Origin: a virus
Length of the DNA: 43,534 bases
Strand: one strand, 5' to 3'
Virus record (IMG/VR): IMGVR_UViG_3300025030_000198
Location: 1 to 43,534 of that record
Below are positions 9,400-42,856 of the stretch, in pieces. The notes below the pieces were generated by a model. The model made no database searches. It had not been told where the DNA came from and was given only the letters and a program-made list of their open reading frames with translations. Position numbers and translations under genes: made by a program. Position 1 is the first letter of the stretch. Every line of letters begins with the position of its first letter.

Positions 9400-10095
9400 C
9401 TATTCGTTCTCCTCTTTAATGTCCCTTGCCCATATTTTACCAGATATGACCCTACTTAAAGTAGAATTATCTATATCTAATTTGAGTTCTTTTATTATAT
9501 TTTGTTGTGACATTCCATTATTATGTAATTCCTTAATCAATTTCACAAGGTCATAATTTAATTTAGCGTGAGGATGTGTGTTGCCATTTCTGACCCTATC
9601 TTTATTATCACGATCTTTTATATTATCAAGTTGTGTTCCTATAAACAAATGTTCGGGATTAACGCATGAGGGATTGTCACATTTATGACATATAACTTGC
9701 CCCTTGTCTATTGTCCCATTTGTTATAGTCCACGAAAATCTATGTGCATTACAAGTTATGCTTTTTATTTTAAAAACGCCATAACCTATTTTATCTTTAT
9801 ATGATTTCCATTCCCAACAACTCTCCGTCTTGTTCACCTTCAACCAAAATCTTTCAATATCTAATGATGTAATCGGAGTGTTCTTAATTTCAAAATTAGC
9901 CACTTGTGTAGTTAATGATTTATTATGTTCACGCCTTTGTAATATACTTTCTATTTCTTCCATTTTTAGTTTACAGTTATTTTCAATATTGCTGGATTTT
10001 TTCAAAAAATCATTAAACGCCATTAACTTTTTAGTTGACCGCTTCAGTAATGTTTTATTTGGTATCATCAATAATCTGTTTAGAACAATTCCCAT
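9400..10095 (-). CDS. HNH homing endonuclease
   Basis: About 231 residues. The central HNH domain is clear: AHRFSWTITNG, then CHKCDNPSCVNPEHLFIGT (zinc-binding Cys and catalytic His), followed by DNIKD. The C-terminal 50 residues (KELHNNGMSQQNIIKELKLD...STLSRVISGK) form a helix-turn-helix DNA-binding module. It is freestanding and sits immediately upstream of the RNA ligase, whose ribosome-binding site lies in this gene's 3' end. The start is not well fixed: GGAG is 14 nt before ATG 10095, and internal Met codons lack better sites. Confidence 0.88.
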   Translation of the reverse strand: MGIVLNRLLMIPNKTLLKRSTKKLMAFNDFLKKSSNIENNCKLKMEEIESILQRREHNKSLTTQVANFEIKNTPITSLDIERFWLKVNKTESCWEWKSYKDKIGYGVFKIKSITCNAHRFSWTITNGTIDKGQVICHKCDNPSCVNPEHLFIGTQLDNIKDRDNKDRVRNGNTHPHAKLNYDLVKLIKELHNNGMSQQNIIKELKLDIDNSTLSRVISGKIWARDIKEENE

Positions 10096-11021: not shown

Positions 11022-11177
11022 TCATTTATCCTCAATTACATTTCTCTTAATTTCGTCTTCATTAATATTCCAAAGTCTTGTATAAAAATAACTTATAGCT
11101 TCTTCTCTAGTTTTGCTAGTGTGATAAACGGTTCTCCATTCATCATAATCCCAAAATTTTAGTTTCCATCTTTTCAT
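11022..11177 (-). CDS. Small unknown protein
   Basis: A 51-residue ORF (MKRWKLKFWDYDEWRTVYHT...) whose ATG overlaps the primase stop codon (ATGA, 11174-11177) and is preceded by GGAGAAG. The aromatic N-terminus and helical REEAISYFYTRLWNINEDEIKR segment look like a folded small protein. Function unknown. Confidence 0.65.
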   Translation of the reverse strand: MKRWKLKFWDYDEWRTVYHTSKTREEAISYFYTRLWNINEDEIKRNVIEDK

Positions 11178-20709: not shown

Positions 20710-21747
20710 TTATGAAATTGTTTTGAAGTTAGAGGAACTATATGTGCCTCTATGTAGTATGTTCCTAGCACCATTATAATCGGCATCTAGTTCCACACCA
20801 CATGTGGAGCAATGATAGGCTTCGCCTTGGCGAGATTTCTTATCAATAACACCACAACAGGAACAAGTCTGAGATGTGTAAGCAGGATTCACTTTAGTAA
20901 GTTTAAAACCTTTAACCTCGCTAAGTGAGCCGAACTTATCTAGGACTCGTTTATATGACCAGTATTGTAATTTGTTGTTAAATTTAGAACCTAGTTTTGA
21001 TTTATATTTGACTTGTTTAAGATCTTCTACCACAACATGACCAACATCATCAAGTGGTAGATTATTAAGTACTTGGTTTATCATGTTATTTTTATATACA
21101 ACCAATTTCTTGTATTTCCTAGAACCGCGTTTCTTATTTGCTAGTCTATCATATACTAATTTTAGATCAACACCATAATGTTGATTGTTTGAATCAGAAA
21201 GTAATTTCTTGTATCCACAATCGAAAGCAATAGTTTCTGGTTTATTATTTGGCTCTGTAGTCTTTTCGTGAAACAAATCAATATAGTATTTGTTGCCATC
21301 TTTACGAAGTCTAACACTATTTTTATTTGTCCAACCAGCAAATTTGTTGAAATGTTTATGTTTCTTGCTAGGTAGATTGATACTAATCTTATTACCGATT
21401 GATGATAGACGAAACCATAGATCAAAGGAATTATCATCTTGTGATACGTCAATGAATCGACCATCGAAATTGATAACATCTGATTTAAATATGGGTTTTG
21501 TCTTTTTCTTTCGTTTGTTCTGTGATTTGACTATCTCAAGAGCTTGCTTTCCAAGACACTGTTGCATTCTGGCAGACAACCATGTATCTACTTTGGTTGA
21601 GATAAATTTCTGGTTCGTAGCTGAACCAGTCCACAATGAATCAATAAATAGATTAATTACTCGTTTAGATTCTATCAATATAGAATCAAGGGCGTCTAAT
21701 TTATTACGATTTGCGTAACTAATATTGTGTTGAGTTCGTCTAATCAT
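20710..21747 (-). CDS. tnpB: TnpB RNA-guided nuclease (IS200/IS605 type), solitary
   Basis: 345 residues. The RuvC-like active site is complete: AFDCGYKKLLSDS (Asp), VVVEDLKQV (Glu) and LDADYNGARNIL (Asp), with a CSCCG...CSTCG zinc ribbon between. TnpB proteins are programmable nucleases guided by a reRNA/omegaRNA that overlaps the 3' end of the gene. No TnpA lies beside it, and only 29 nt separate it from the next gene, so a canonical right end and guide region are not evident. A hairpin-associated sigma70-type promoter (21811-21839) serves it. Confidence 0.92.
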   Translation of the reverse strand: MIRRTQHNISYANRNKLDALDSILIESKRVINLFIDSLWTGSATNQKFISTKVDTWLSARMQQCLGKQALEIVKSQNKRKKKTKPIFKSDVINFDGRFIDVSQDDNSFDLWFRLSSIGNKISINLPSKKHKHFNKFAGWTNKNSVRLRKDGNKYYIDLFHEKTTEPNNKPETIAFDCGYKKLLSDSNNQHYGVDLKLVYDRLANKKRGSRKYKKLVVYKNNMINQVLNNLPLDDVGHVVVEDLKQVKYKSKLGSKFNNKLQYWSYKRVLDKFGSLSEVKGFKLTKVNPAYTSQTCSCCGVIDKKSRQGEAYHCSTCGVELDADYNGARNILHRGTYSSSNFKTIS

Positions 21748-24449: not shown

Positions 24450-25373
24450 TTATCCTTTGGTAAGCTCCAGCGCAATCTCAAAGGCTTTCCGGTTAACATC
24501 GGCGTTAGCTCCAACCCAAAGCGACTTCAAGCGATTATCAACAGACCGTCCAGCTTCATAGTTAAGGTATTCGTTGACAGCTTGAAATGCACCAAAGTAA
24601 TTATGAGTAGCGTTAGAAGCACCACGACCATTCTCATAAAGTTCAGCAATGGCTTCTACTTTGGATTTACGCATTTCCTTAACTTCAGTTTCATTCTCTT
24701 CTTCGTCCTTACCAAAGACAAGGCGAACATACCTTTCAAGATCTTTCTTGTTGACACCCTTACTGGCAAGATAACGATACTGTTCAGCAGTAGCAGCAAA
24801 TTCACGATTATGAAGATCCATGATCTGCTTAATTTTGTCAAGACCCAAATGAACGTTTTTGGTATGTTTCAATTTGAGTTTATTGGAAGTCTTAAGTTTG
24901 GGGAGCTGATTCGCACAAAAAAGACGAATTGGCATGAACATTGCAACCACAGACGTAGTACCATCATGACTATTTAGTAGAGTAGCGTAAGACTGAATTA
25001 CATCACCCTTGATAATTTCAATCGGTTCGCATAGGATCTTAGCTTGGACAAATACGATGTTGCTCTTACCGAGCAATCCAGCGTGTTCAATGGTGGCGAA
25101 CTTGTTTTCAATAAACTCATCAAAGAAACCAAAGGCTTCTTGATTTTGAACCACCTGATACCGCTCCCCCACCACACCCAAAACTTCATTTTTGTCATCA
25201 CGAACAGTCACTTTAGTTTTAGGAACCTGAGTACCATCAGCAAGAAAACAATCCTGAAGACTGACGTTGTAATTCAGACCGGCATCATTCATCGAATCGG
25301 TAACGGATTTGAATTCTTTTTCGATCTTGACAGCAGAGGAACCAAAATTATTACCTTCAGCGTAACGTACCAT
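24450..25373 (-). CDS. DUF932 family protein, copy 1
   Basis: 307 residues of the DUF932 (TIGR03299-type phage/plasmid) family: DCFLADGTQVPKTKVTVRDD, LGVVGERYQVVQNQEAF, FATIEHAGLLGKSNIVFVQA and the C-terminal YFGAFQAVNEYLNYEAGR. The biochemical role of the family is not established. ATG 25373 is chosen because GAGGAGAAAC precedes it. It is an evident paralogue of 32675-33595. Confidence 0.88.
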   Translation of the reverse strand: MVRYAEGNNFGSSAVKIEKEFKSVTDSMNDAGLNYNVSLQDCFLADGTQVPKTKVTVRDDKNEVLGVVGERYQVVQNQEAFGFFDEFIENKFATIEHAGLLGKSNIVFVQAKILCEPIEIIKGDVIQSYATLLNSHDGTTSVVAMFMPIRLFCANQLPKLKTSNKLKLKHTKNVHLGLDKIKQIMDLHNREFAATAEQYRYLASKGVNKKDLERYVRLVFGKDEEENETEVKEMRKSKVEAIAELYENGRGASNATHNYFGAFQAVNEYLNYEAGRSVDNRLKSLWVGANADVNRKAFEIALELTKG

Positions 25374-25389
25374 GATGTTTCTCCTCATT

Positions 25390-25454
25390 TTGAAGTTAGT
25401 GTTCAATGTCGCTCAATGTTTAAATATTATAACTTGAATTCATTTAAATGTCAA
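25390..25454 (-). promoter_or_regulatory. Consensus sigma70-type promoter with imperfect hairpin
   Basis: TTGACA (25449-25454), 17-bp spacer, TATAAT (25426-25431), a perfect consensus. Positions 25430-25438 can pair with 25390-25398 (8 of 9 pairs, one C-C mismatch), ending next to the GAGGAG of the DUF932 gene. The 28 nt at 25428-25455 recur exactly at 31062-31089. Confidence 0.82.
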
Positions 25455-27578: not shown

Positions 27579-28183
27579 GGTATATCTTTCCAATCCATAT
27601 TAGCAAATATGTGGTTAACCCAATGACCGTAACCAGTCGAAGGTTTACACACACTTTCATTCATCACCATATCAAGGTAATAGGGCTTATCGTTAATATA
27701 AGTGGTGTAATATTTACCCTCAGTCCCGATTTTCTTCTTATCAAAATAAAGTTTAATACCAAGACCTAAACCAGCTTCACATTCGTTTGTTCCTAGAAGG
27801 TAAGGTTTAATCTTAAGATCTTCTCTCTTATCTCCTAATGACCCTTTAGGAACAATCAGTACTGAATCCTGATCGAAGTAGACTCCAAGATGATACAGAT
27901 CTTCTTCTAGGTTTCCAGTATCCTTGATATCAACGACAAAATAAGAATCCTCTTCTACAACTACACCAGACTCAGGATAACGACCACGAACAGAAGTGAC
28001 AGAATAACCCTTAGCTAAAAGTTTATTCACTAAGGATTTGTTTCTCTGTTTGTTTTCTTTTTCAGTGTAAGGTTTACCAGTGTCACAATTATCCGTCTTA
28101 CGAAATGAAGTGATAGTTCCACAATCATGTTCATTAGAATGTTTTATTAATCGTGACATTGAAGATTCTGTTAGTGTTTTCAT
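27575..28183 (-). CDS. Late-unit protein, paralogue A, protease-site N-terminus
   Basis: 202 residues. MKTLTESSMSRLIKH has an LTE site seven residues from the start. It shares the plan HDCGTITSFRKTDNCDTGKPY, KGYSVTSVRGRYPE, EDSYFVVDIKDTGNL, FDQDSVLIV and TNECEAG with the next gene, so the two arose by tandem duplication. Both a sigma70-type promoter (28238-28265) and a GATAAATA site inside a 26-nt palindrome precede it. Start chosen by AGGAG. Confidence 0.78.
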   Translation of the reverse strand: MKTLTESSMSRLIKHSNEHDCGTITSFRKTDNCDTGKPYTEKENKQRNKSLVNKLLAKGYSVTSVRGRYPESGVVVEEDSYFVVDIKDTGNLEEDLYHLGVYFDQDSVLIVPKGSLGDKREDLKIKPYLLGTNECEAGLGLGIKLYFDKKKIGTEGKYYTTYINDKPYYLDMVMNESVCKPSTGYGHWVNHIFANMDWKDIP

Positions 28184-28195
28184 GTTTGTTACTCC

Positions 28196-28223
28196 TAAAT
28201 ATAATGATATCATTATATTTATC
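28196..28223 (-). promoter_or_regulatory. Late-type promoter GATAAATA (L6) in a perfect 26-nt palindrome
   Basis: GATAAATA at 28216-28223 overlaps a perfect palindrome at 28196-28221 (13-nt half-site TAAATATAATGAT). The palindrome ends next to the AGGAG of the 27575 gene. RNA from the upstream sigma70-type promoter would contain the whole fold; RNA from GATAAATA would start within it. Confidence 0.68.
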
Positions 28224-28237
28224 TTGAGCCTCTTTTT

Positions 28238-28265
28238 ATTATACCAAATTAAATTGAGGTGTCAA
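28238..28265 (-). promoter_or_regulatory. Sigma70-type promoter
   Basis: TTGACA (28260-28265), 16-bp spacer, TATAAT (28238-28243), just downstream of the gene at 28277. It lies upstream of the late-type site, so the paralogue pair has tandem promoters of both classes. Confidence 0.78.
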
Positions 28266-28276
28266 TGGAACTGAGA

Positions 28277-28633
28277 TTAAATTCCCTTGAACGCAACTTC
28301 AGTTAAATTTTTAATGATGAGTTCCTTAATATTATCAGCTACATAAATAATATTGTCGATATCATAAAGTGGGTTAGGAACTTCCTTAAATTGGTGACAA
28401 TTATCACACTCTTGATCACAATCAAATTCCTTACATCCCTTCACACTTAACTCACACACTCTTGAGGTAATAGGGTGTGCTCTTGAGACTCCAACACTAC
28501 AATTAGAACTATCAATAGGGATCATTGTAATAGAATGAAGTTTGCGTTTGTTTTTCTCAATAGTAGTATTAGCGTTGACAACAATATAAAGCTCATTAGA
28601 GTGTTTCCATTTTACCACATTTCCGATATACAT
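28277..28633 (-). CDS. Cys-cluster unknown protein
   Basis: 118 residues. A small barrel-like start (GNVVKWKHSNELYIVVNANT) is followed by CKEFDCDQECDNCHQF, a likely zinc site, then a beta-rich end. It starts 4 nt after the upstream stop. Function unknown. Confidence 0.7.
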   Translation of the reverse strand: MYIGNVVKWKHSNELYIVVNANTTIEKNKRKLHSITMIPIDSSNCSVGVSRAHPITSRVCELSVKGCKEFDCDQECDNCHQFKEVPNPLYDIDNIIYVADNIKELIIKNLTEVAFKGI

Positions 28634-28636
28634 AAT

Positions 28637-28804
28637 TCAAATCTCCATAATAGTAATTGAGTATTTACCATCACATGAATGTTCCTTAGCTTTCTCTTCA
28701 TCTAGAAAGGCTGGAACAGAATATTCACCTTCAGGTAATTCTTTAACCTCACCATAAACTAATAAAGAGTTAACAGCTTTCATGACAACATAAAGCTTAC
28801 TCAT
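28637..28804 (-). CDS. Small unknown protein
   Basis: A 55-residue ORF (MSKLYVVMKAVNSLLVYGEV...), GAGAGGAAT before the ATG, overlapping the phosphatase stop by one base. Ends DGKYSITIMEI. Function unknown. Confidence 0.62.
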   Translation of the reverse strand: MSKLYVVMKAVNSLLVYGEVKELPEGEYSVPAFLDEEKAKEHSCDGKYSITIMEI

Positions 28805-32674: not shown

Positions 32675-33595
32675 TTATCTGGCAAGTTTGAGAGCTGTAG
32701 TTAAGGCTTTCTGATTAATTACAGCTCCATTTCCAACCCACAGAGCGCGAAGTCTCGATGAGGTTTCTCGTCCAACAATATAATTCAAATATTCTACTAC
32801 AGCTTGAAATGCACCATAATAATTTCTGGTAAATTCAGTGGCACCACGACCACCTTCAAATAAATCCTTAATAGTCTGAACTCTTGATTCTCTCATCTCA
32901 CGTTCAGGATTATCATTACCGATGACGGCACGAATATACTTATCCAGAGTTTTATCCTTAATCGGTCTTGAGGCAAGGTGTTTGTATTGCTCACAAGTCT
33001 CAAAGAATTCCTCAGAATGAACACTCATAATCTCACGAAGTTTCTCAAGACCGACTAAGGCATTTTTGGTATGCTTGGTTCTATCAAAAATTCCAGTTTT
33101 AAGTTTAGGATTCATACACATAGAATTAACTCTAATCGGCATGAATCCTGTGAAGATTGAGGTTGATCCGTCAAAACTATTCAACAATGTAATATAGGAT
33201 TGAATAAAATCTTCAGGAACAATTTCAACGGGATCAATAGCTACCTTCGCTTCAATGAAGACGATATTAGAACTTCCCAATGTTCCTGCATGTTCGATAG
33301 AGGCAATTTTGTGATGAATGAATTCCTGAAACCAAGCAAAACTTTCAACGTTCTGGAGAGGAACATAACGTTCCCCTACTACACCAATTTGCTGATTGGT
33401 ATCATCACGAACGGTAGCTTTAACCTTCGTAACTCTATCACCAATTTTGTCAGGATTATCAGGATCAGAAAGAAAACAATCTCTCAGACTAACAGTATAA
33501 TCCAATTTAGCAGCTTTCATGACCGCTGATACACTCTGAAACGGTTTTTTGATTTCAGTACCAACAGAACCCCAAGGACTTTTAATTTCTTTCAT
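32675..33595 (-). CDS. DUF932 family protein, copy 2
   Basis: 306 residues, paralogous to the gene at 24450: DCFLSDPDNPDKIG, VKATVRDDTNQQIGVVGERY, KIASIEHAGTLGSSNIVFIEA, LLNSFDGSTSIFTGFMPIR and YYGAFQAVVEYLNYIVGRE. It has its own promoter (33638-33665) and terminator, so it is a single-gene unit. AAGGAG precedes the ATG. Role unknown. Confidence 0.88.
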   Translation of the reverse strand: MKEIKSPWGSVGTEIKKPFQSVSAVMKAAKLDYTVSLRDCFLSDPDNPDKIGDRVTKVKATVRDDTNQQIGVVGERYVPLQNVESFAWFQEFIHHKIASIEHAGTLGSSNIVFIEAKVAIDPVEIVPEDFIQSYITLLNSFDGSTSIFTGFMPIRVNSMCMNPKLKTGIFDRTKHTKNALVGLEKLREIMSVHSEEFFETCEQYKHLASRPIKDKTLDKYIRAVIGNDNPEREMRESRVQTIKDLFEGGRGATEFTRNYYGAFQAVVEYLNYIVGRETSSRLRALWVGNGAVINQKALTTALKLAR

Positions 33596-38694: not shown

Positions 38695-38901
38695 TTATTT
38701 ATCACTTAGTTTTGTGAGAGTCGTTTTAATTTCAATAGTCTGAATGAGTCTACCCTTGGTGTCACAGTCAGGACAAGGTTCACAAATAGTTTCGTATTCT
38801 CTATGATGATAATCAACCATTTTTTCGTGACACACTATACCCTTACCTTCACACTTAGGGCAAATGATGATTGATTCTTCTTTAGTTTTCTTAGTAGACA
38901 T
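38695..38901 (-). CDS. DnaJ-type zinc-finger protein
   Basis: 68 residues with CPKCEGKG and CPDCDTKGR, the CxxCxGxG layout of the DnaJ central zinc finger, without a J domain. Likely a small zinc-binding adaptor. TTGAGG precedes the ATG. Confidence 0.75.
   Translation of the reverse strand: MSTKKTKEESIIICPKCEGKGIVCHEKMVDYHHREYETICEPCPDCDTKGRLIQTIEIKTTLTKLSDK
38696..38703 (-). promoter_or_regulatory. Late-type promoter GATAAATA (L7)
   Basis: GATAAATA 27 nt upstream of the ATG at 38669, in the last codons of the preceding gene. A weak TAAGT/ACTTA repeat flanks it and the ribosome-binding region. Confidence 0.65.
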
Positions 38902-41568: not shown

Positions 41569-41771
41569 TTTTCTTCCTTCTCAAGTAAAATTACAGTTCT
41601 AACTTCATCCACCCTAACAATAAGAGAGTCGTTGTATTTCTCTGCTAAAGTTATTGCGTCACTAGCTAAATTACAAGTTGAAGTTAGAAAATACTCATCT
41701 AATTTTTCCTCATAAAGCCAAACTTCAAACTTAGAATGAGGTTTGGTGAATTTATCAAATTTATTCATCAT
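41565..41771 (-). CDS. Small unknown protein
   Basis: 68 residues (FEVWLYEEKLDEYFLTSTCN, AITLAEKYNDSLIVRVDEVR), a small alpha/beta fold. Its start overlaps the end of the homing-endonuclease gene. Function unknown. Confidence 0.68.
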   Translation of the reverse strand: MMNKFDKFTKPHSKFEVWLYEEKLDEYFLTSTCNLASDAITLAEKYNDSLIVRVDEVRTVILLEKEEK

Positions 41772-42804
41772 TTAACCCTTTCAGTAAATTATATTGATCT
41801 TCGTGTGACAACCAATATGGGATTTCTATTAATCTAATATTATTTTCTTTACAGTAATCTCTTAATTCTTGATCTCGTTTTTGTTGTTTCTCGAAAGCTT
41901 TCTGACCTCCCCAAAATTCAATTGGTTGGTAGTGTTGTTCACCGTTATATTCTATAAATACTCCATTAACAACGAAATCTATCATATAATTTCTATTGTT
42001 AAATCTTACAGTCAACTTCTTTATATTATCTTCGCCGTATTTTTCTCTCAACCAATTTCTAATTCTAGTTTCATTCTTTAACTTACAATCAGGACACCCG
42101 GTTCCGCGATAAACTTTCTTAGGAACAGCGTCCCACACATTTCCGCATATATCACATCTCCATCTCAGTTTTATTGTACAGTTTACATAATTATCTAATC
42201 TAGTTATATTTCTTCCCTCTAATCTTTTATCCACTTCCGCATTAGTTAATATATTTTTGCCGAAACACTTAGGGCATCTTCTACCCATAAAAATCTTATC
42301 TAACGTGGTATTCCATGTATGATTACAAAATTTACATTGGCAAAGAGTCTTGGTTCTATTAGTAACGTAATCTCCTATCAGCGAGACATCTTTGTCTTTT
42401 AATCTTTCTACTACTTCATCCCTAGTTAATTTTATATTTCCTGCACATTTAGGGCATCCTGTTCCATGTAGAACATTTTCTGGTTTAGCTAACCAAGTGT
42501 GTGAACAGAATTTCTTTAGACATTTAAATTTCACAATTGTTTTGTTATTCACATAGTCGTCAACGAGAACTATATTTCTACTTTTTAGCTTTTCGTTTAT
42601 ACCATCTTTTGTTAGTTTGAGATGTCCAGAACAAGATTTACATCCACCATTATGATACATATTAGCAAATGAAGCTTCATAAATATACTCACACACCAAA
42701 CACTTGAATAAGCCTCTATCTGTTAATTTATCATAATCAGACAGTCTAATTTTATTGAAAGATTTTAATTTTTTGTCCAACTCGTTCAAAGATATTTTTA
42801 TCAT
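41761..42804 (-). CDS. Freestanding homing endonuclease: zinc-ribbon repeats plus Vsr-like nuclease
   Basis: 347 residues. Four tandem units of about 60 residues each combine a helix-type segment (for example LTKDGINEKLKSRNI) with a zinc knuckle pair (CSGH, GCPKC, RCPKC, GCPDC), a DNA-reading array. The C-terminal 110 residues form a Vsr/EDxHD-type nuclease (IDF, FIEYNGEQHY, then KRDQELRDYCKENNIRLIEIPY), the family of I-Bth0305I, which lies in a phage recA gene. Here it sits just after recA/uvsX. Its ribosome-binding site is buried in a 20-bp inverted repeat containing a late-type promoter. Confidence 0.85.
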   Translation of the reverse strand: MIKISLNELDKKLKSFNKIRLSDYDKLTDRGLFKCLVCEYIYEASFANMYHNGGCKSCSGHLKLTKDGINEKLKSRNIVLVDDYVNNKTIVKFKCLKKFCSHTWLAKPENVLHGTGCPKCAGNIKLTRDEVVERLKDKDVSLIGDYVTNRTKTLCQCKFCNHTWNTTLDKIFMGRRCPKCFGKNILTNAEVDKRLEGRNITRLDNYVNCTIKLRWRCDICGNVWDAVPKKVYRGTGCPDCKLKNETRIRNWLREKYGEDNIKKLTVRFNNRNYMIDFVVNGVFIEYNGEQHYQPIEFWGGQKAFEKQQKRDQELRDYCKENNIRLIEIPYWLSHEDQYNLLKGLNDE

Positions 42805-42856
42805 TTGCTACTCCTTAAAAGATGTTTATATTATTTATCTTTTAAGGAGTAGCAAA
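42804..42856 (-). promoter_or_regulatory. Late-type promoter GATAAATA (L8) inside a 20-bp RBS-sequestering hairpin
   Basis: Perfect 20-nt arms at 42804-42823 and 42837-42856, loop 13 nt. The arm nearer the gene holds AAGGAG and ends at the A of the ATG. GATAAATA (42832-42839) covers the loop and the end of the first arm, 28 nt from the ATG. RNA reading through from recA would hide the start; RNA from GATAAATA would begin after most of the first arm. T4 I-TevI, e, soc and 49 are known for the same logic. Confidence 0.85.

Follow-up and report, generated by a model that had tools for sequence, protein, structure and literature searches.

A perfect 20-bp hairpin in front of a free-standing nuclease gene, overlapping a late-type promoter, is in our judgement very probably a timing lock of the kind known from bacteriophage T4 I-TevI, which would confine translation of the nuclease to late infection. 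The window, by which we mean the whole 43,534-nucleotide stretch of viral DNA analysed here (IMGVR_UViG_3300025030_000198), carries this hairpin on its minus strand between the nuclease gene and uvsX. RNA reading through from uvsX would carry both arms and fold into the hairpin; with its Shine-Dalgarno (SD) sequence hidden along with its start codon, the nuclease would not be made. Late in infection, the late polymerase of the phage would start at GATAAATA, producing an RNA that begins in the loop and lacks the 5′ arm; its SD would be free and the nuclease could be translated. We infer both the read-through from uvsX and the block to translation in the cell, with repression in vivo being predicted from folding.

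The hairpin buries the start of the nuclease gene

Read 5′ to 3′ on the minus strand, the hairpin is TTTGCTACTCCTTAAAAGAT-AAATAATATAAAC-ATCTTTTAAGGAGTAGCAAA-TG. Its arms (42856-42837 and 42823-42804) are complementary at 20 of 20 positions and enclose a 13-nt loop. The 5′ arm (42837..42856, minus strand), located by repeat search and folding, contains the anti-SD CTCCTT and would be found in read-through RNA only, whilst the 3′ arm (42804..42823, minus strand) holds the SD AAGGAG (42811..42816, minus strand) and the A of the nuclease ATG, at 42804. A T4-type lock calls for a stable stem taking in the SD and/or the start codon, and the hairpin forms such a stem. The first-pass annotation had reported a perfect 20-nt inverted repeat burying AAGGAG together with the first base of the start codon, which proved correct to the base, and had placed GATAAATA in the loop and first arm, where we also find it (GAT in the 5′ arm, AAATA in the loop). 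No perfect inverted repeat in the window whose arms lie within 60 nt of each other is longer. By composition, such a window should hold only ~1e-5 perfect 20-bp stems closing a loop of 3-40 nt, and the folding z-score of the RNA is -8.1, with 0 of 200 shuffles matching it.

Opening the SD and AUG was computed to cost 17.3 kcal/mol in the read-through RNA, vs 4.7 in the RNA from the predicted late start. The median SD-opening cost over 113 starts, taken from the window and a sister contig (IMGVR_UViG_3300037384_000093, hereafter G001), was 4.0 kcal/mol, and nuclease genes ranked 1, 2, 5, and 7 among these starts for SD burial. T4 control genes were computed with the same code. The buried genes e and 49 gave SD-opening costs of 15.3 and 12.1, and the change from read-through to late RNA was 15.7 to 5.8 for segB, 11.4 to 0.4 for I-TevII, and 8.5 to 6.5 for soc; the cost was only 1.4-3.2 for ipI, ipIII, mobC, and mobD. 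The proposal of a T4-type, SD-burying arrangement is supported, the values for the window resembling those of segB, I-TevII, e, and 49.

A probable late-type promoter overlaps the 5′ arm

The promoter motif, GATAAATA (42832..42839, minus strand), spans the 5′ arm and the loop, and each of its eight copies in the window is on the coding strand. For a test of promoter identity, we pooled the window with G001 and considered the region 12-65 nt upstream of SD-bearing starts. There, GATAAATA was the top 8-mer of all for enrichment upstream of genes, ranked first among its 168 letter permutations, and had 13 of its 19 coding-strand copies in these upstream regions, which make up 7.3% of the sequence (p=3e-11); this enrichment upholds the promoter identity claimed for the motif at the outset. 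TATAAATA was also tried as the promoter of the window phage and was rejected, with 0 of 8 coding-strand copies upstream of starts. The late promoter of cyanophage S-PM2 has been reported as NATAAATA (PMC2984593), and in T4 a late promoter consists of a single 8-bp box placed roughly one turn ahead of the start (PMC2988020). Because of the upstream enrichment, the S-PM2 motif, and the T4 box layout, we regard it as well supported at the sequence level that GATAAATA is a late-type promoter of the phage group to which the window belongs; its late use would follow by analogy with T4 and the cyanophage motif.

By the published spacing rule (PMC2988020), transcription would start at 42824..42826 (minus strand), about one helical turn past the TATA box. 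The promoter overlaps the 5′ strand of the stem, and late RNA from this predicted start would lack that strand. For comparison, GATAAATA at 38696..38703 (minus strand) precedes another gene at equal spacing and has no hairpin. Promoters of the T4 late type lack a conserved -35 element and are read by a gp55-type sigma factor. A gene for the late sigma factor gp55 was not recognisable in the window fragment or in G001, both of which are partial; gp55 is present in G005, a 214-kb phage with the same nuclease family.

The gene encodes a predicted Vsr-like nuclease beside uvsX

The nuclease gene (41761..42804, minus strand) encodes 347 amino acids, comprising DUF4379 treble-clef zinc-finger repeats followed by a C-terminal Vsr-like (EDxHD) domain. 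Pfam returned the treble-clef DUF4379 repeats, and PHROGs returned HNH/homing endonuclease families. A whole-protein fold search gave mostly weak or low-TM matches, Foldseek with the catalytic domain alone gave no significant match, and a PDB sequence search found nothing significant for the protein. The catalytic domain (residues 235-347; 41764..42102, minus strand) was delimited by alignment, AlphaFold2, and structural alignment. Residues D276, E285, H291, and D311 are invariant across an alignment of 35 homologues and E245 is nearly so, and AlphaFold2 modelled the C-terminal 113 residues with a pLDDT of 92.8. With the second-look aligner VIA, the best structural match of the domain was I-Bth0305I (3r3p; Z 10.1, 2.6 Å, 90 residues) and the second best was Vsr (1cw0; Z 9.1), both above the other rows. 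The predicted domain thus has a Vsr-type fold with conserved E, D, H, and D. Because of these structural matches and the four invariant residues we conclude that the protein, as modelled, is a Vsr-like, EDxHD-type nuclease, in agreement with the earlier suggestion that it is structurally unrelated to I-TevI. A second mobile nuclease gene of the window, an HNH_3 endonuclease at 9400-10095 (minus strand), has no GATAAATA directly upstream.

The catalytic domain is predicted to superpose on that of the EDxHD homing endonuclease I-Bth0305I, which resides in an intron of a phage recA gene; the neighbour in the window is uvsX. The window gene differs in having no intron and in a DNA-binding part made of treble-clef repeats, and its nuclease cleavage is predicted. 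As the first-pass annotation stated, the nuclease adjoins recA: the 3′ part of a uvsX/recA-like gene, cut by the contig end (42871..43533, minus strand), lies directly upstream, with its stop codon 14 nt from the hairpin and no terminator between. The nuclease gene is absent from 60 of 60 distant uvsX loci, and uvsX abuts a helicase gene in the distant relative L014; both are consistent, as sequence comparisons, with insertion of the nuclease gene beside uvsX. Its absence from the 60 loci, together with the several copies in the sister phage, lends indirect support to homing of the nuclease, which we infer.

The arrangement recurs in relatives

G001 is syntenic with the window (their helicases are 68% identical) and carries four nuclease copies, one of them at the same place after uvsX. 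GATAAATA lies upstream of all four, and the SD is strongly buried in three. The copy at G001 885 stands downstream of an unrelated gene, with no uvsX there, and its cassette (CTCCTTAAAAGATAAATAATATAAA..TCTTTTAAGGAG) is almost identical to that of the window, with a near-identical 25-nt core. Beyond the SD, both sides of the stem differ and pairing is kept (GCTAC/GTAGC vs AATAC/GTATT). The remaining G001 copy, at 11053 (the fifth when that of the window is counted), is antisense to its neighbours and has no strong SD burial by the opening-cost measure (3.5-5.0 kcal/mol). A GATAAATA gene of unknown function at G001 17536 has a moderate hairpin (9.0), and the lock is therefore not confined to nucleases. 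In the leader of the uvsX-side copy (G001 27592-28662; leader L201:10057-10137), GATAAATA is found on both strands inside an inverted repeat. Two paralogous genes of the window, at 24450-25406 and 32675-33595 (minus strand), also have relatives in G001; the first matches phrog_1221 (function unknown).

Conservation of the hairpin across the whole nuclease family was considered and rejected: distant homologues in other phages mostly lack both the motif and strong SD burial, and no hairpin was found in relative L004. A check for the repeat in homologues, as suggested at the outset, thus found the arrangement again in relatives, with different hairpin sequences, and mostly not in distant homologues.

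We also scanned viral contigs for an anti-SD, KATAAATA, and an SD in that order, and many such hairpins turned up. Among the matches listed, stems of at least 12 bp occurred at 22 distinct places; an ATG gene followed in the direction of the promoter at 21 of these, against one of 22 in the other direction. A reversed-motif control gave such stems at three places, with an ATG gene at one place in each of the two directions. Behind the hairpins lie T4-like late structural genes, such as that for the terminase large subunit, and others that we take, from recognition of their sequences, to be neck, tail, and baseplate genes. Nucleases of several families are also found there, namely HNH (L111, L115), GIY-YIG with NUMOD3 (L151), a DUF7487 type (L007), and the Vsr-like family of the window (L013).

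Other explanations of the hairpin

By analogy with I-TevI, which binds an operator overlapping its late promoter (PMC2988022), the palindrome might instead be a DNA operator to which the zinc fingers of the nuclease bind, shutting off its own late promoter, the RNA hairpin being secondary. The nuclease has several treble-clef repeats that could serve this end, and the near-identical 25-nt core in the window and G001 885 would fit a binding site. However, other copies pair with different sequences and always place the SD on one side of the stem, and we consider this explanation improbable; an operator and an RNA lock could, moreover, coexist. Even less likely is that the hairpin terminates or stabilises the 3′ end of the uvsX transcript and covers the SD by accident: its position just past the uvsX stop codon would suit such a role, but neither strand has a U-tract or a GC stem with U-tract resembling an intrinsic terminator, and the same cassette occurs at G001 885 behind an unrelated gene, without uvsX. 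That the SD and promoter-region sequences are complementary by chance, with no regulation, is scarcely credible, for although AT-rich leaders and a fixed SD restrict sequence space, the number of stems expected, the folding z-score, the recurrence in relatives with compensatory changes, and the orientation control of the contig scan (21 vs 1) all argue against it.

A structured leader on unrelated nucleases

A leader longer than that of the window stands before the nuclease copy at G001 11053 and before two copies in G005. Its elements, which make up a three-way junction, follow in the order promoter box, inner stem, TAAG, hairpin P2, hairpin P3, TGTC, inner stem, TCTATTTAT, SD, and ATG, where TCTATTTAT pairs with the promoter box. 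A covariance model built from these three leaders picked up one more, ahead of an HNH gene unrelated to the nuclease. We now count 27 distinct leaders (L200:10922-11060, L202:2385-2512, L355:1370-1500, L370, L383, L384, L445, L456, L468, L469, and others), comprising 24 from a pattern scan and listing and three more in G005 from a model search. They precede GIY-YIG, HNH, Vsr-like, and one TnpB-like gene, some of the HNH genes being presumed such from a motif recognised in the sequence. No family was found for the genes after leaders L428 and G005 60712, and no intact gene start was found after L397 and L405.

Across 19 aligned leaders, 94.4% of cells pair and 77 show changes on both sides, where shuffling gives 75.4% and 22.7 (0 of 500 shuffles). 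Because the scan pattern already contained the box, TAAG, and TCTATTTAT, and the later listing TGTC, the conservation of these four elements does not count as independent evidence; neither P2 and P3 nor the genes downstream nor the SD copy had been imposed. P3 repeats the SD region of its own gene, the shared word averaging 7.33 nt within a leader vs 4.56 between leaders (0 of 20,000 permutations; 4.2 for P2, for comparison), and three leaders outside this test share 6, 8, and 8 nt with the SD region. No anti-SD partner for the SD copy was found in cis within 300-400 nt, except in one trivial case. At conserved positions of the inner stem, P2, and P3, only 2 of 208 paired cells are G-U. Folds of single leaders contain 43 G-U among 543 pairs (12.8% in shuffled leaders), which makes the deficit most marked at the conserved pairs. 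The opposite strand carries a late-promoter-like box, ATAAATAGA, and together with the scarcity of G-U this suggests that both strands may need to fold; folding of both strands, or a role at the DNA level, would fit the scarce G-U at conserved helices. The leader may act via an antisense RNA with an anti-SD loop, as an SD decoy, or at the DNA level. In the first case, the antisense RNA might be initiated at the opposing late promoter, display its anti-SD loop, and so repress the nuclease in trans.

Rfam gave no match above the gathering score in the structured leaders, with chance-level matches only and one tRNA elsewhere. The model had no match at E <= 0.1 in T4, Aeh1, KVP40, or S-PM2, four leaders used as DNA queries against annotated phages gave no convincing match, and a literature search for such a leader found nothing relevant. 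The hairpin of the window lies outside this family, with no window match of model R2 at E <= 0.1; R2 does match copies of this nuclease family in G001 and G005. The uvsX-side copy of G001 matches the three-way-junction model weakly (E 0.004), and its leader is perhaps a reduced form. We put forward only tentatively, as a view with less than even chances, that the window lock stands at one end of a wider and so far undescribed control system of T4-like phages, in which unrelated mobile nucleases (Vsr-like, GIY-YIG, HNH, TnpB-like) share a covarying three-way-junction leader that starts at a late promoter and has a copy of the SD region of its own gene in one hairpin.

Separate hairpins of an early type (TATACTCCTCT.. 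/ ..GAGAGGAG) occur on the minus strand of the window near 13323-13288, 21816-21777, and 26493-26458, and at G001 13487. Their 5′ arm holds a TATACT box, preceded 17 nt upstream by TTGACA in at least two, and their 3′ arm holds an SD; they resemble the PeSL (promoter-early stem-loop) cassettes of T4-type phages. One adjoins a TnpB-like ORF (Cas12f1-like_TNB; 20710-21747, minus strand) with no adjacent TnpA recognised. PeSLs, like the nuclease unit of the window, place a promoter and a stem-loop between genes; however, they carry an early promoter, whereas the promoter of the window unit is of the late type and its stem hides the SD.

Relation to known locks and significance

Late-promoter hairpins have been reviewed for the GIY-YIG nucleases I-TevI, I-TevII, and segB and for the HNH nucleases I-TevIII and Aeh1 mobE (PMC2988022, PMC3014915). 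There, too, the SD lies in the stem, the 5′ strand overlaps a late promoter, and only late RNA is translatable. The window differs from these T4 and Aeh1 cases in its Vsr/EDxHD fold, in having GATAAATA instead of TATAAATA, in a perfect 20-bp stem that takes in the A of the start codon, and in a free-standing gene after uvsX. T4 e, soc, and 49 have the same lock at lower costs (8.5-15.3), and are structural, lysis, or recombination genes, whereas the window gene is a mobile nuclease. The idea, put forward in the first-pass annotation, that unrelated homing endonucleases share the lock is not new in itself, having been reviewed for two folds. What is new is the third catalytic fold, the phage group distant from T4, and the structured-leader version in relatives.

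The more novel lead is the structured leader. It gives a concrete RNA family, open to testing and apparently acquired by several unrelated mobile nucleases, on which reporters could show how selfish genes fit the timing programme of their host. With the window, for its part, the late-translation lock would reach a third, unrelated nuclease fold and a T4-like phage group far from T4, which suggests that mobile nucleases may in general need late-only translation to persist in such phages.
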